A stretch of DNA of 64,000 bases from assembly GCF_037201915.1 (NCBI RefSeq), contig NZ_CP147505.1, positions 1,550,001 to 1,614,000 of the forward strand, written 5' to 3'. Shown one piece after another: positions 34,099 through 40,069 of this stretch. Position numbers and translations under genes: made by a program. Each line of letters starts with the position of its first letter. The stretch's first letter is position 1. The notes beneath the pieces were generated by a model. That model saw only the letters and a program-made list of their open reading frames with translations, ran no database searches and was not told the origin of the DNA. This DNA is from Haloplanus sp. CK5-1. GTDB lineage: Archaea; Halobacteriota; Halobacteria; Halobacteriales; Haloferacaceae.

Positions 34099-34569
34099 AT
34101 GGCTCGAATCTGGGTGACTATCGGCACCCCTACCATGCCCGCGATTTTGAACCCGCTGACAGCGGCGTGTGACCGCGGATACGTCCCGGACGAGGTACTG
34201 GTTCTGTCGAATCCGGGGGTCGCCGAGTCGGTCGCGGATGCGACCGACCGGTTCGAGGTGATCGTCGATGCGTACGGGAACGACGCCGCTATCGCTACGC
34301 ACGATCTGGAAAACGAGACCGCTTTTCGGAAGATCATCGAGTTCTACCGGTCGACGATCGAGGCTGCACGGGAGGCTGACGACACGATCGCCGTCGACGT
34401 CACCCCCGGTCGGAAGTTCATGTCCGCCATCGCGTTCCAAGCAGGATTCAAATTCGACGCCGATCACGTCTTCTATTTTTACCGCAAATCTGGGGGCTAT
34501 TACGGACAGTTCTTCGCCGAGATCCCCCGAACGGCGACGGAACTGATCGATTTCAAGGAGGTGCTGTAA
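34099..34569 (+). CDS. CARF-like Rossmann-fold protein
   Basis: A 156-residue protein with an alternating strand/helix pattern. The first strand ARIWVTIGTP leads into a helix; the second strand is DEVLVLSNPG; a strand EVIVDAYG follows; and the last conserved block is IAVDVTPGRKFMSAIAFQAG (99-116), which resembles the D-x-T-x-G-x-K-x-M-S core of CARF domains that bind cyclic oligoadenylate. No other domain is attached. Its stop and the start of the PIN-like gene share one base (TAATG), so the two are coupled. I infer a sensor subunit for the nuclease next door. Alternatives are a general nucleotide-binding Rossmann protein without cyclic-nucleotide sensing. Confidence 0.65.
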   Translation: MARIWVTIGTPTMPAILNPLTAACDRGYVPDEVLVLSNPGVAESVADATDRFEVIVDAYGNDAAIATHDLENETAFRKIIEFYRSTIEAAREADDTIAVDVTPGRKFMSAIAFQAGFKFDADHVFYFYRKSGGYYGQFFAEIPRTATELIDFKEVL

Positions 34570-35606
34570 TGCACCTAGAGCGCAGTCGGCTGGTGGTGCT
34601 GTTGAACGCGCTGTACGATCACGGCGTCGACTCGATTCCCGTCAAACACCCCTGTGGGGCGATAGGCGAACTCGTGCGGATCGATCTGGAGGACGACGGG
34701 CGGGCCACGATCCGGTGTACACAGGGGACGATGACGTATCAGGACAACCGCGAAACGATCCCTGCAAAGTACGGCGAACCCGCCTACAACGACCTTCCGG
34801 ATGCCGAAACGTACACCCGTGCGATGGTCGCGAGCGGCCACGTCGCGCTCGACAACCGAGACGAGGTCCACGAGTTCGTTCGCCGACACGGGTACGCCGA
34901 CCTCGAAGCGGGACACGACCCCGTCGTTCTCGGACTCGATGCGAACATCGTCGCGTGGCGGCTCCCGGACGTGTTGGGTATCGATGCCGAAACCGGGGAG
35001 ACCGACGACCGCGGACGACGGCCGATCAACGGGTACGCGCTGGCGACGGGTGTCAAAGAAGAGTTGGACTGGCACTACAAGCAGTACAACACCGCGGAGT
35101 TGACCGCGGCCTTCGGCGACGAGTTCGCTCGCCTCGACGACCAGCCGGCCGGAGCCAACCGGGAGGGGCTCCTCGCCCTGTACGAGTACCGCCGCCTTCG
35201 GGCCAACCGGACCGTCGATATCCTCGACTGCGAAACCGGGGACGAAGCCATCGTCGCGGCCTACGAAGCGTTCAATCGGAACAGTCGCAAGCAGGCGGTG
35301 GTGCTCAGCAACGATTACGGATTCGTCGATCGGAGCGTCGACGTCGGCGTTCCCGCACAACACGTCGATTTCCCGGTGGACGTTCCCCGAACGGCGGCTG
35401 GCTCGTGGACACAAGCCGCGGAACTACTCTACTACCTCGCAGTCCTGTTCGGTGTCGTTCGACTGCCGAAGGTGACGCTCTATGGCGTCTGGAACGGGAA
35501 AGACGGCCGTCACTGGCAGCACGAACGGATCGATATCGACTGTTGCAGTCCGAAGATAGCACCACAGTTGGAGAGGGACCTCACTATCCTCGGGGTAACG
35601 GAGTAA
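34569..35606 (+). CDS. PIN-like nuclease paired with the CARF-like protein
   Basis: A 345-residue protein. Residues 1-115 form an N-terminal domain I do not recognise. From residue 118 the pattern fits a PIN nuclease: Asp124 in VVLGLDANIVAW, Glu164/Glu165 in GVKEELDWH, Asp225 in GDEAIVAAY, and Asp249/Asp254 in VVLSNDYGFVDRS, followed by GVPAQHVDF. These acidic residues are at the places of PIN metal ligands. A C-terminal hydrophobic segment AELLYYLAVLFGVV may be buried. With the CARF-like partner, it is plausibly a ligand-controlled RNA or DNA cutter. No cas genes or arrays are nearby. Confidence 0.68.
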   Translation: MHLERSRLVVLLNALYDHGVDSIPVKHPCGAIGELVRIDLEDDGRATIRCTQGTMTYQDNRETIPAKYGEPAYNDLPDAETYTRAMVASGHVALDNRDEVHEFVRRHGYADLEAGHDPVVLGLDANIVAWRLPDVLGIDAETGETDDRGRRPINGYALATGVKEELDWHYKQYNTAELTAAFGDEFARLDDQPAGANREGLLALYEYRRLRANRTVDILDCETGDEAIVAAYEAFNRNSRKQAVVLSNDYGFVDRSVDVGVPAQHVDFPVDVPRTAAGSWTQAAELLYYLAVLFGVVRLPKVTLYGVWNGKDGRHWQHERIDIDCCSPKIAPQLERDLTILGVTE

Positions 35607-35676
35607 CACCTGTCGCCACGCGGTGTGACGGCACAGTCAAGTGGTTCCCCACTATACTCTGCCGAGAGACCAACTA

Positions 35677-36099
35677 ATGGAGATTCCCGAACGGCTCGAA
35701 TGTCTGTTTTCGGCCTCGATCGAGGAACGGGACGACTCGTACGTGATCACCGTTCCGGAGCGTGAACTACAGATGGGTTCCCTCCAGCGAGGGGAGACGT
35801 ACCGTATCGCGGTGGTCCCCGCACACGAACCGGGCGAACCGGAGCGGAGCGAACGCGAGGACGTGGAGTCCGGGCGGGAGCGCGAAGCGCCGGAGCCACC
35901 GGTCGCGCAGGGTGATACGCGGGACGTCGAGATCGAGGACATCGGCGAACAGGGCGACGGGATCACCCGGGTCGAACGGGGCTTCGTCGTGATCGTCCCC
36001 GAGACGGAGGAGGGCGAGCGGGTCAAAATCGAGATCACGGACGTACGGCAGAACGTCGCGTTCGCCGACGTCGTCGAACGGTCGGGTCACTACGAGTAG
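35677..36099 (+). CDS. TRAM domain protein
   Basis: A 140-residue haloarchaeal TRAM protein. The N-terminus MEIPERLECLFSASIEER is the family start; a charged Glu/Arg-rich linker follows (about 50-75); the C-terminal TRAM domain is clear (DVEIEDIGEQGDGITRVERG and VVIVPETEEGERVKIEITDV). TRAM domains bind RNA and small versions act as RNA chaperones or translation regulators in archaea. An AT-rich CCACTATACTC near 35648 may include the TATA box. It lies downstream of the CARF-like/PIN-like pair on the same strand but with its own likely promoter. Confidence 0.88.
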   Translation: MEIPERLECLFSASIEERDDSYVITVPERELQMGSLQRGETYRIAVVPAHEPGEPERSEREDVESGREREAPEPPVAQGDTRDVEIEDIGEQGDGITRVERGFVVIVPETEEGERVKIEITDVRQNVAFADVVERSGHYE

Positions 36100-36400
36100 G
36101 TGGCCAGGCCGTGTCAGGAGAGCGGCGAGGGTGTTCGGACTGGGCACGTATCGCGTGTCTCGGTGCGCTGACCGTCTGACGCGGGGCGACCACCCGGACG
36201 TGCAGCAACGATATTAGCGTCGGTCCGCGAAATCCGAACCCTCCGTCGCTACCGACTGCGTACGGAACTGTTGGAACCGTTTCAGGCGACACTGCCTCGC
36301 GATTCGCCGTGGTGGGTCGCGAGTGGAATCGATCCGGGTATCCGACCGGTGCGATCTTTATACATCTGTAGGTACAACGTATATACAAGAGGCGATCGGT
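36100..36400. other. Intergenic region before the toxin-antitoxin pair
   Basis: About 300 bases with no convincing gene in either strand. The first two-thirds are GC-rich without clear structure; the last 45 bases hold the promoter/operator of the ribbon-helix-helix gene. Confidence 0.5.
36357..36386 (+). promoter_or_regulatory. Promoter and probable operator of the RHH/PIN module
   Basis: A TATA-like TTTATAC (36357-36363) is followed by the near-palindrome TGTAGGTACA (36367-36376) and the palindrome GTATATAC (36379-36386), all within 45 bases of the GTG start. Ribbon-helix-helix antitoxins usually repress their own promoter at such short palindromes. Confidence 0.55.
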
Positions 36401-36700
36401 GTGACACGAAAAGTCAACTTCAGACTCCCGGACGAACTCGTCGAGAAGGCCGACGTAGCCGCCGAAGTCTCCCACAAGAATCGGACCGAAATCATCAAAG
36501 AGGCGCTCCAGCAGTACCTCCAGGAAGTTGAGGACGACGAGAAGTTCAAGGAAGCAGTCGTCGAACTCTACCTCGACAACGAAATCGGATTCGAGACACT
36601 GAAGCAGTTTATCGGGCGGCAAGACGCCGAAAGCGTTCGAGCCTCCAAAGCACTCCTCAAACAAGGCGAGGATCTGGCCGACGAACTCGCCGAACTATAG
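36401..36700 (+). CDS. Ribbon-helix-helix antitoxin (UPF0175-like C-terminus)
   Basis: A 99-residue protein starting at GTG 36401. The strand RKVNFRLPDELVEKAD and helix NRTEIIKEALQQYLQEV form a ribbon-helix-helix DNA-binding unit; the C-terminal AVVELYLDNEIGFETLKQFIGR with ASKALLKQG resembles UPF0175 proteins, which pair with DUF3368 PIN toxins. The partner PIN gene begins 11 bases after its stop. The longer ORF to 36323 crosses the promoter and is unlikely. Base composition is lower in GC than in core genes. Confidence 0.85.
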   Translation: MTRKVNFRLPDELVEKADVAAEVSHKNRTEIIKEALQQYLQEVEDDEKFKEAVVELYLDNEIGFETLKQFIGRQDAESVRASKALLKQGEDLADELAEL

Positions 36701-36711
36701 AGGCGGTGTGA

Positions 36712-37203
36712 ATGATCGTCGCTGACACCTCCGCACTAATCTCACTCACAGCGGCCGATACACTTGACCTACTTCTCGAAGAGTTCGATGTCCACACCAC
36801 TGAAACTGTCGTCGAAGAACTCGAAGATCTAGCCAGATACCAGGACTACACTGCTGAGTATGCCGACATAGTACTCAGTCAAAAAGAACGGATCACAGTC
36901 CACAGCGTCGACACACCGGAATACCAGTCCTCCCGAGTCGACGAAGGAGAAGGTAGCTGCATACAACTAACCCGAAACCAGGATAAGGACTTCCTCATCA
37001 CCGACGATCTCCGCGCACTCCCCGAACTACAGACACTCACCGAAACAAGGATCGCCATCTCACCCATCGTCCTCAAAGCACTCGTCAACCGCGGAGTACT
37101 CGACAAACAAGAAGCACTGGAACGACTGGAAAAAACAGCCGAGGAGCGGGACTGGCTGGAAGCACCGATCTACCGCAGAGCAAGGGGATTGTTTGACGAG
37201 TAG
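36712..37203 (+). CDS. PIN domain toxin (DUF3368-like, VapC-type)
   Basis: A 163-residue PIN nuclease. Catalytic acids are Asp5 (VADTSALISL), Glu35/Glu36 (VVEELEDL), Glu79/Glu80 (VDEGEGSCI) and Asp98/Asp99 (FLITDDLRAL). The DEGE and TDDLRAL patterns fit the DUF3368 group rather than classic VapC. It would cleave RNA when freed from the upstream RHH antitoxin. The reading frame is intact. The convergent IS6-type copy begins about 30 bases after its stop. Confidence 0.87.
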   Translation: MIVADTSALISLTAADTLDLLLEEFDVHTTETVVEELEDLARYQDYTAEYADIVLSQKERITVHSVDTPEYQSSRVDEGEGSCIQLTRNQDKDFLITDDLRALPELQTLTETRIAISPIVLKALVNRGVLDKQEALERLEKTAEERDWLEAPIYRRARGLFDE

Positions 37204-37232: not shown

Positions 37233-37923
37233 GGTCGCGTTAACTTTGGCGTGAGTTGTGCCGGACGGCGAGGGCTTTGAGCCACGATTCTGCTGTCTGC
37301 GGTTCGACATGTCTGAAACTAGTTGCGAACGATGAGGTTCGTTGTTCTATCTCCCAAAAGACACGTTCGATGGCATTCCGATTCCCGTGTGAAATCATCT
37401 GGAATCGGTACCCATCTTCGTCGAGGACGTTCACTAGATAATCGGCGTCATCGACGAGAAATTCGACGCCATCTAGCCGATATTGCCGATGCAGCTCGGT
37501 CAGAAACCATCGCGTCGTCTGTTTCGTCGTCGCTGGAAACAGCCTGAACTGCAGGATTTCGTTCGTTTGGGGATCGACGGCACCGTACAGCCAGTAGTCG
37601 TCGCCGTTGATGCGGATCACTTTCTCGTCGACCGCGAGTTGATCCGCACTCACCGTCGAAATTTGCTGTAGATCGGCCTTGTGCACCCAGTTGTGAACCG
37701 CGACGTGACTACGTTTGACTCCCAACTCATCGAGAAACTGACTGGCATCCCTTGTTGACATACCTGCGAGATGACACCGGATACCCACTTGAATCGCCCA
37801 CTCGGGAGTCCGCTTTCGCTCCACAAACGACAAGTCGATCCACTCGATACACTTGCTGAGGCGTTCGGATTCTGCCATAGACACTCAGAAATCGAACGCC
37901 TCATCCTCTAACTTAACGCGACC
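37233..37923 (-). mobile_element. IS6-type insertion sequence, copy A (691 bp)
   Basis: Bounded by 11-base inverted repeats: GGTCGCGTTAA at 37233-37243 and TTAACGCGACC at 37913-37923. It has the same length, ends and orientation as the copy at 39379-40069. No 8-base target duplication flanks it, which for IS6 elements suggests cointegrate formation or later recombination. Confidence 0.9.
37240..37878 (-). CDS. IS6-family transposase, copy A
   Basis: A 212-residue DDE transposase of the short IS6 type. An N-terminal helix-turn-helix region (STRDASQFLDELGVKRSHVAVHNW) precedes the catalytic residues: Asp in LAVDEKVI, Asp in FLVDDADYLV and Glu in AIERVFWEIEQ. The ATG at 37878 is used; a GTG two codons upstream is possible. 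It differs from copy B at 12 of 212 residues by my count, most of them at the N-terminus. Confidence 0.93.
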   Translation of the reverse strand: MAESERLSKCIEWIDLSFVERKRTPEWAIQVGIRCHLAGMSTRDASQFLDELGVKRSHVAVHNWVHKADLQQISTVSADQLAVDEKVIRINGDDYWLYGAVDPQTNEILQFRLFPATTKQTTRWFLTELHRQYRLDGVEFLVDDADYLVNVLDEDGYRFQMISHGNRNAIERVFWEIEQRTSSFATSFRHVEPQTAESWLKALAVRHNSRQS

Positions 37924-38009: not shown

Positions 38010-39005
38010 TCAATTATCGTCATTAGAGGTTCTCTCTGTGATGCCGCCTGCCTCTTCTATATCTCTCAAACCTATCTCTTCCCCATCCATCGTAGCCCCC
38101 TCTAAATCGGCCGCTCTAAAATCGGCCTCCGAAAGGTCAGCATGAGTGAAATTGGCGTCGGAAAGATCAGCTCCAGACAAATCAGCTCCTGAAAGGTCAG
38201 CATTGGTGAGGTCGGCGTTAGAGAGATCTTTCCCGGAAAGATCGGCTTCAGACAGGCTAGCCTTATAGAGGTTGACACCCTTGAGATCTACCGCTTCAGA
38301 AAACAAGATCTCAGTTGCTGTGGAGTAACCCTTGTGTGAACGAGCCTTTACACAGTCCGCAGCAATGCGAAACGCATCCATGCTTAAGCTCTCTTCGAGT
38401 TGTAGCACCTCTACGAAGTCATCACCTGCTTTTGATACTATGTTATTCAGTATCTCTTCATCCGCATTCTCACCCAACCCTACAGCAAAAAAGAATTTAG
38501 AATGGTCACAAAAACCTTCTCCGATCGCCTTCTGTGCTTCCTGCCAGATCTCACCACTAGACTGATCCGGTCGGCCGTCTGTGATAAGCCAAATCAGGGG
38601 AAGTCTGTAGGCGAGTTCTGTTCCGTGCAGATAGTGCTCATATTCTTCTAATTTTTTAATCCCTTTAATTATCGCTTTACACATTGGGGTACTTCCTCTT
38701 GCAGAGAATGTTGGCGGGCTTGACTCTATCCACGTCTCTTTAATTGGTCGGAAATCCTGTTCTGTTTTCACCCTGCCACCGAAAGTCACTAGTGACACGT
38801 CCACACTTTCGTGTGCTAAAAGGTCTTCAGACACCTGCTCAGTGAATATTTCTAATCCTTCGTTCAATAAATCTATCACTCGTCGTCTATTGCCATCCTC
38901 TGTTTCAATTCTTCGTCTTTTTGCTCCAGACACGTCTATCAAGAACAAAACCGGTACGCGTGCGACCTGACGGTTGACTGTGTCTAATTCATTTTCTTCA
39001 GTCAT
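38010..39005 (-). CDS. VWA domain protein with C-terminal pentapeptide repeats
   Basis: A 331-residue protein. Residues about 17-215 form a von Willebrand A domain: VLFLIDVSGA gives Asp24-x-Ser26-x-Ala28, with the third metal-site residue (normally Ser) replaced by Ala; Thr106 in GSTPM and Asp143 in ITDGRPD are present. Residues 239-306 are about 13 pentapeptide repeats (ADLSG, ADLTN, ANFTH), which fold as a right-handed beta-helix. The VWA part resembles TerY-type proteins of stress/conflict systems. The gene is AT-rich compared with the rest of the window and is bracketed by two IS6-type copies. The ATG at 39005 is chosen; the ORF's first codon upstream is TTG. Confidence 0.85.
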   Translation of the reverse strand: MTEENELDTVNRQVARVPVLFLIDVSGAKRRRIETEDGNRRRVIDLLNEGLEIFTEQVSEDLLAHESVDVSLVTFGGRVKTEQDFRPIKETWIESSPPTFSARGSTPMCKAIIKGIKKLEEYEHYLHGTELAYRLPLIWLITDGRPDQSSGEIWQEAQKAIGEGFCDHSKFFFAVGLGENADEEILNNIVSKAGDDFVEVLQLEESLSMDAFRIAADCVKARSHKGYSTATEILFSEAVDLKGVNLYKASLSEADLSGKDLSNADLTNADLSGADLSGADLSDANFTHADLSEADFRAADLEGATMDGEEIGLRDIEEAGGITERTSNDDN

Positions 39006-39059
39006 TTTTACTTGGTCCAATTTGATGGATTGATCTCTTGATTGCTTGCTACTGGTTTA

Positions 39060-39378: not shown

Positions 39379-40069
39379 GGTCGCGTTAACTTTGGCGTGA
39401 GTTGTGCCGGACGGCGAGGGCTTTGAGCCACGATTCTGCTGTCTGCGGTTCGACATGGCTGAAACTAGTTGCGAACGATGAGGTTCGTCGTTCTATCTCC
39501 CAAAAGACACGTTCGATGGCATTCCGATTCCCGTGTGAAATCATCTGGAATCGGTACCCGTCTTCGTCGAGGACGTTCACTAGATAATCGGCGTCATCGA
39601 CGAGAAATTCGACGCCATCTAGCCGATATCGTCGATGAAGCTCGGTCAGAAACCATCGCGTCGTCTGTTTCGTCGTCGCTGGAAACAGCCTGAAATGCAG
39701 GATTTCGTTCGTTTGGGGATCGACGGCACCGTACAGCCAGTAGTCGTCACCGTTGATGCGGATCACTTTCTCGTCGACCGCGAGTTGATCCGCACTCACC
39801 GTCGAAACCGGCTGTAGCTCGGCCTTGTGCACCCAGTTGTGAACCGCGACGTGACTACGTTTGACTCCCAACTCATCGAGAAACTGACTGGCATCCCTTG
39901 TTGACATACCTGCGAGATGACACCGGATACCCACTTGAATCGCCCACTCGGGAGTCCGCTTTCGCTCCACAAACGACAAGTCGATCCACTCGATACATCC
40001 GTTGAGGCGGTCGAATTCTGGCATAAGCACTCAGAACTCGTCCGCCTCATCCTCTAACTTAACGCGACC
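39379..40069 (-). mobile_element. IS6-type insertion sequence, copy B (691 bp)
   Basis: Ends GGTCGCGTTAA (39379-39389) and TTAACGCGACC (40059-40069), identical to copy A. Its low-coordinate end interrupts a VWA gene; its other end lies 48 bases before the DHH phosphoesterase gene. No 8-base target duplication is visible. Confidence 0.9.
39386..40024 (-). CDS. IS6-family transposase, copy B
   Basis: A 212-residue DDE transposase with the same catalytic residues as copy A (LAVDEKVI, FLVDDADYLV, AIERVFWEIE). Both copies are full-length, so either could supply activity. The N-terminal residues (PEFDRLNGCIEW versus AESERLSKCIEW) hold half of the differences, which suggests that the two copies arrived separately or have diverged by recombination rather than arising from a very recent duplication. 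Confidence 0.93.
   Translation of the reverse strand: MPEFDRLNGCIEWIDLSFVERKRTPEWAIQVGIRCHLAGMSTRDASQFLDELGVKRSHVAVHNWVHKAELQPVSTVSADQLAVDEKVIRINGDDYWLYGAVDPQTNEILHFRLFPATTKQTTRWFLTELHRRYRLDGVEFLVDDADYLVNVLDEDGYRFQMISHGNRNAIERVFWEIERRTSSFATSFSHVEPQTAESWLKALAVRHNSRQS

Follow-up and report, generated by a model that had tools for sequence, protein, structure and literature searches.

Within the 64,000-nucleotide window of the Haloplanus sp. CK5-1 genome, which consists of one 3.24 Mb contig, two co-directional genes that we call P1 and P2 overlap by a single base at the junction TAATG, with the start of P2 inside the stop codon of P1 (Table 1). The original prediction for this locus had described two genes joined in this manner, and the two open reading frames are exactly those that it named. 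A second such pair is found in the same genome (G000:C1:2612798-2614278) and is 42-44% identical to the pair in the window.

Table 1. Features of the P1-P2 locus and its downstream neighbourhood (positions in the window)
Feature	Position	Strand	Description	Evidence or remark
P1	34099..34569	+	156 aa, single-domain CARF protein, predicted sensor (CARF_m1)	family match, AlphaFold2, Foldseek
Predicted CARF ligand-binding motif of P1, D100-V-T-P-G-R-K-F-M-S109	34396..34425	+	codons of residues 100-109	conservation
P2	34569..35606	+	345 aa, predicted PIN-nuclease effector	PADLOC, profile, AlphaFold2, Foldseek
D124 codon	34938..34940	+	predicted PIN catalytic acid 1	invariant, 58/58 haloarchaeal, 19/19 phylum-wide
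E165 codon	35061..35063	+	predicted PIN catalytic acid 2	invariant, 58/58 haloarchaeal, 19/19 phylum-wide
D225 codon	35241..35243	+	predicted PIN catalytic acid 3	invariant, 58/58 haloarchaeal, 19/19 phylum-wide
D249 codon	35313..35315	+	predicted PIN catalytic acid 4	invariant, 58/58 haloarchaeal, 19/19 phylum-wide
TRAM-domain gene	35641-36099	same as P2	directly after P2	not recurrent at other pairs
Ribbon-helix-helix gene, then small PIN-like protein	36323-37203		VapBC-like pair	PIN-like protein matches PADLOC candidate PDC-S70
IS240/IS6-type transposase copies	37233-37923, 39379-40069	same orientation	691 bases each	96.5% identical
vWA plus pentapeptide-repeat gene	38010-39020		between the two IS240/IS6-type copies	

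P1 is a member of the CARF superfamily by both family match and predicted fold. It matches the PADLOC CARF_m1 CARF model (PDLC01972) with an E value of 6.8e-64, the high score across the full profile (positions 1-145 of 145) that marks CARF_m1; many CARF families come next, and the score against Pfam Cas_NE0113 is just over the cut-off. Single-sequence searches of the PDB with P1 and P2 returned no useful match, such that profiles and folds were required; the TAL-effector matches of the P1 profile are repeat artefacts. The AlphaFold2 model of P1 (33 sequences) has a pLDDT of 93.6, with its strands and helices following one another in a Rossmann-like order, and in a Foldseek search of the PDB the top match is SiRe_0806, with further matches to Csm6, Cad1, Cam1, Sso2081, Sis0455, Can2 and Csa3, a collection of CARF effectors and ring nucleases. 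Thus, the earlier view of the first gene as CARF-like is borne out by the predicted fold and its CARF top matches. Likewise, the VDVTPGRKFMSA block, read previously as a CARF-type core, is indeed the conserved core of the family: among 56 haloarchaeal homologues G104 is invariant and more than 90% retain D100, T102, R105, F107 and S109, and the DVTPGRKFMS block is conserved across haloarchaeal, methanogen and Cas10-linked members. P1 therefore has the two features that define the superfamily, the Rossmann-like CARF fold and a core motif of the D-x-T-x-G-[RK]-K type. By analogy to the structural relative solved with cA4, P1 may bind a cyclic oligoadenylate or a related nucleotide, and since the ligand motif is conserved, we argue that a ligand would still be bound.

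We considered whether P1 could be a ring nuclease that breaks down cyclic oligoadenylates, with P2 accompanying P1 but not gated by it. The predicted structure of P1 resembles Sso2081 and Sis0455, and P1 homologues (L158 and L159 in our numbering of loci) carry the automatic NCBI product name ‘CRISPR-associated ring nuclease’; this name may mislead, since no cyclic oligoadenylate system was found in the L158 and L159 genomes. Against the NCBIfam ring-nuclease model Crn1, however, P1 scores 13 bits where the cut-off is 125, yet it scores very high as CARF_m1. Given also the constant coupling or fusion of P1 to a PIN nuclease and the lack of any cyclic oligoadenylate source in our searches, both described below, we regard this explanation as highly improbable. 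Self-limiting cleavage of the ring by a CARF that gates a nuclease would be compatible with the reading that we prefer as well.

P2 is composed of an N-terminal domain of ∼115 residues followed by a PIN domain. Single-sequence searches were nearly silent apart from the fused PADLOC model CARF_m1 CARF_PIN (PDLC01973, E 3.6e-21), which covers P2 residues 3-324, but a phylum-wide P2 profile matches the solved PIN domains 1o4w (E 7e-5) and 9jxw, and Rrp44 weakly. The AlphaFold2 model has a pLDDT of 93.7, and its first five Foldseek matches in the PDB are all chains of SiRe_0806; next come 3ix7 and 3i8o, domains of proteins of unknown function that we take to be PIN folds. The acidic residues listed in the original prediction stand in part: D124, E165, D225 and D249 are invariant, but E164 and D254 are not conserved in either the 58 haloarchaeal or the 19 phylum-wide sequences and are thus ruled out as catalytic residues, lying outside the site. 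With four conserved acids on a PIN fold, found by both profile and fold matches, P2 has the hallmarks of a PIN nuclease and is predicted to act as a metal-dependent RNase. No Pfam family matched the N-terminal 115 residues, which are present phylum-wide (N13 and P77 are invariant) and are included in the fused PADLOC model. The P2 in the window alone deviates at three near-invariant sites (G203 to A, L245 to V and R326 to C), with the predicted catalytic acids intact.

The closest structural counterpart of both proteins is SiRe_0806 of Sulfolobus islandicus, deposited in the PDB as apo protein (9jxw) and with cA4 (9jxx). SiRe_0806 combines CARF and PIN and is the top structural match for the P1 and P2 models, with sequence-profile matches that are weak but significant; it differs in that a single chain of 429 residues takes the place of the two genes, and identity is only about 12-19%. 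A literature search for a publication on SiRe_0806 found none among the papers that it covered. The other CARF-gated effectors among the structural neighbours of P1 (Csm6, Can2, Cam1 and Cad1) carry other effector domains, and they are activated by cyclic oligoadenylate made by Cas10. In PADLOC, P1 belongs firmly to PDLC01972, P1 matches the N-terminal half of PDLC01973 (CARF_PIN) and P2 the C-terminal half, and there is no separate model for P2; the PADLOC output states no function for either entry. Two CARF families with PIN had been noted in 2014 (PMC4012209). The family is therefore one that was catalogued earlier and of which a relative has been solved; beyond what PADLOC and PMC4012209 record, we find that the split form occurs widely in haloarchaea, that its two genes are strictly paired and maintained by selection, and that it does not depend on type III CRISPR. 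We consider it fairly probable that the pair represents a two-gene version of CARF-PIN effectors such as SiRe_0806 and CARF_m1, is uncoupled from type III, and acts as a defence switch that is gated by a ligand and probably cleaves RNA.

The two genes are strictly paired across haloarchaea. Among 391 haloarchaeal genomes, P2 has a match in 63 and P1 in 58, and near-full-length P2 is present at 58 loci in 53 of the 391 genomes, about one in seven. At 57 of these 58 loci P1 is either directly upstream of P2 or fused to it, and at the remaining one (L069) P1 is found across the origin of an evidently circular plasmid; this pairing is far beyond chance. At most junctions the two genes share one or four bases, and at two haloarchaeal loci a single fused CARF-PIN gene of ∼515 codons takes their place. 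Both genes are under purifying selection, with dN/dS of 0.03-0.11 across the six closest orthologues (NG86, synonymous sites being near saturation). The distribution is patchy, on chromosomes as well as plasmids, and includes several Haloferax species; viral or phage copies of the pair were searched for and none were found. One pair on a contig binned as Candidatus Sumerlaeota (L106) is 52% identical to haloarchaeal pairs and is probably wrongly binned haloarchaeal DNA. The checks proposed with the original prediction, structure prediction for both proteins and a survey of homologous gene pairs, thus gave a CARF fold for P1, a P2 model that matches SiRe_0806 and PIN domains, and two genes that co-occur and are adjacent. 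On the three points chosen beforehand as able to overturn that prediction, namely the fold of P1, the acids of P2 and the co-occurrence of the genes, nothing was found to refute it, and its interpretation is largely correct.

Two small overlapping genes, one with an RNase-type toxin fold, that are patchily distributed and partly plasmid-borne would also suit a toxin-antitoxin-like arrangement, in which P1 is a proteinaceous inhibitor of the P2 RNase that is lost or degraded under stress and the ligand pocket is disused. However, the ligand motif of P1 remains conserved, the one-gene fusions would be unable to release an antitoxin, and the pair of the relatives discussed below is linked to type III CRISPR. 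Moreover, the DNA-binding antitoxin partner of VapBC systems has no counterpart here, as the family matches of P1 are to CARF and not to any DNA-binding family. We therefore judge this arrangement to be distinctly unlikely.

The adjacent P1-P2 pair is also present in many other genomes of the phylum, and in seven relatives outside Halobacteria Cas10 is found ∼5-6 kb from the pair on the same contig. In the type III-D-like operons L155 and L156, the same two genes occur in the same order, adjacent or overlapping, straight after the RAMP genes; the full order in L156 is array, cas6, cas10 (GGDD), RAMPs including Csx10, CARF, P2, a 489-aa gene, cas1, cas2, array. Both operons have cas6, cas10 (GGDD) and RAMPs, whereas the haloarchaeal loci have none of these, and the cas1, cas2 and arrays of L156 are likewise missing from the haloarchaeal loci. 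Thus, the Cas10 complex expected alongside an ancillary effector of type III is present in the seven relatives but in none of the 54 haloarchaeal genomes with the pair. The original description of the pair as standalone is accurate for haloarchaea, whose pair genomes have no type III markers, but this state is not universal, since relatives outside Halobacteria reside in type III operons. In a tree of P2, the 19 haloarchaeal rows group together without exception (99/94), and under a midpoint root this group adjoins five of the six Cas10-linked rows, although the branches are long and this neighbour relation is unsure. The simplest story is that the haloarchaeal line lost the type III link, although the change may have run in the reverse direction.

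Of the 391 haloarchaeal genomes, only 2 have a match to the Cas10 palm model, and both of these lack the pair; the absence of Cas10 from pair genomes is defined by one Cas10 model plus the RAMPs, which a very diverged synthase would escape. Type III RAMPs are found in none of the 54 pair genomes but in both of the Cas10-bearing control genomes. Similarly, mCpol, the minimal Cas10-like polymerase of mCpol-CARF systems, is found in 0/54 pair genomes, with a weak control (1/14 genomes, below cut-off). Cas10 and mCpol are thus ruled out as resident ligand sources (0/54 pair genomes each). CD-NTase is above the cut-off in 8 of the 54 pair genomes, though not in that of the window, so that some of the pair genomes do have a source of cyclic nucleotides, which counts against our preferred reading; the linked CD-NTase of CBASS is not found with the pair, and the typed recurrent neighbour families include no nucleotidyltransferase. 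Dependence on other CRISPR types is ruled out, since Cas1 is equally frequent in genomes with the pair (11/40) and others (12/40). Finally, a simple repeat scan, positive on a control, found no CRISPR-like arrays in the window or at any haloarchaeal pair locus, and the genome of the window has neither Cas10 nor Cas1, in agreement with the earlier statement that cas genes and arrays are lacking here.

These searches bear directly on whether the pair is still an effector of cyclic oligoadenylate, whose Cas10 or CD-NTase source is transient (on a plasmid or in a neighbouring strain) or too diverged to detect. Such a role is consistent with the relatives in type III operons, the unchanged CARF motif of P1, the binding of cA4 by SiRe_0806 (according to the title of PDB 9jxx) and the CD-NTases in eight pair genomes. 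Nevertheless, the two Cas10-bearing genomes do not have the pair, RAMPs and mCpol are in no pair genome, the genome of the window has no CD-NTase, and the pair is under purifying selection with no resident source, leading us to consider this explanation unlikely.

Genes of known or potential defence function are found around the pair, but vary between loci. Some pairs are near DISARM-type, Dpd-type, helicase-nuclease and other defence-type genes, which counts in favour of our preferred reading. The immediate neighbours in the window include no known defence system except the toxin-antitoxin-like (VapBC-like) pair 0.7 kb downstream, which counts against a defence switch. Further downstream, the two IS240/IS6-type copies with the enclosed vWA/pentapeptide gene resemble a composite transposon. 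Upstream of the pair at L033, L034, L068, L087, L158 and others there is a cassette of AAA ATPase (DUF4143), vWA, HEAT-repeat and ADP-ribosylglycohydrolase genes, at least one member of which is found at 31/59 loci and which is present on several haloarchaeal plasmids; it is possibly a separate defence system. At 26/59 loci by raw count (L070, L040, L048, L049 and others), including the second pair in the genome of the window, a UvrD helicase with a PD-(D/E)XK nuclease is encoded no more than 10 kb from the pair, often accompanied by a second PD-(D/E)XK protein. At L037 and L067, a Csa3-type CARF-HTH gene adjoins the pair upstream, beside a DpdH-like gene. We do not count the UvrD/PD-(D/E)XK, ADP-ribosylglycohydrolase, vWA, AAA or HEAT neighbours as parts of the system, because each is present at a minority of loci, in variable order and strand, and none is a synthase.

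In CARF effectors, binding of the ligand to the CARF dimer turns the effector domain on. Given this logic and the cA4-bound structural relative, gating of P2 by P1 is the best reading, in which P1 would sense the ligand through its CARF domain and P2 would be the nuclease that it controls. On the model of CARF effectors and cA4-bound SiRe_0806, the PIN site would stay inactive in a complex of P2 with a P1 dimer, until the DVTPGRKFMS pocket is filled by a nucleotide or oligonucleotide born of infection; RNA would then be cleaved by the D124/E165/D225/D249 tetrad with a divalent metal, resulting in dormancy or abortive infection. As our searches found neither Cas10 nor mCpol nor a linked synthase, some other source would have to supply the ligand. 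The ligand may be made up of RNA fragments with cyclic ends or be a messenger made by an unlinked synthase. There is precedent for the former, in that RtcR employs a CARF domain outside CRISPR to recognise RNA fragments that end in a cyclic phosphate (PMC7790460), although this sigma-54 activator, whose CARF is divergent, is not a nuclease as P1-P2 is predicted to be. RNA of this kind has also been proposed as the ligand of CARFs in CoCoNuT systems (PMC11090510).

The pair persists without a detectable maker of an alarm signal and probably has another trigger. We find the evidence evenly balanced on the stronger proposal that this is a CRISPR-independent CARF-PIN immune switch, a former type III effector that is now an abortive-infection system and senses a signal not made by Cas10, such as RNA fragments or a new archaeal messenger. 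CARF proteins are mostly seen as receivers of the Cas10 signal. If the pair is selected in genomes with no signal maker, then either archaea would have a second signalling route, or CARF effectors may work without cyclic oligoadenylate.
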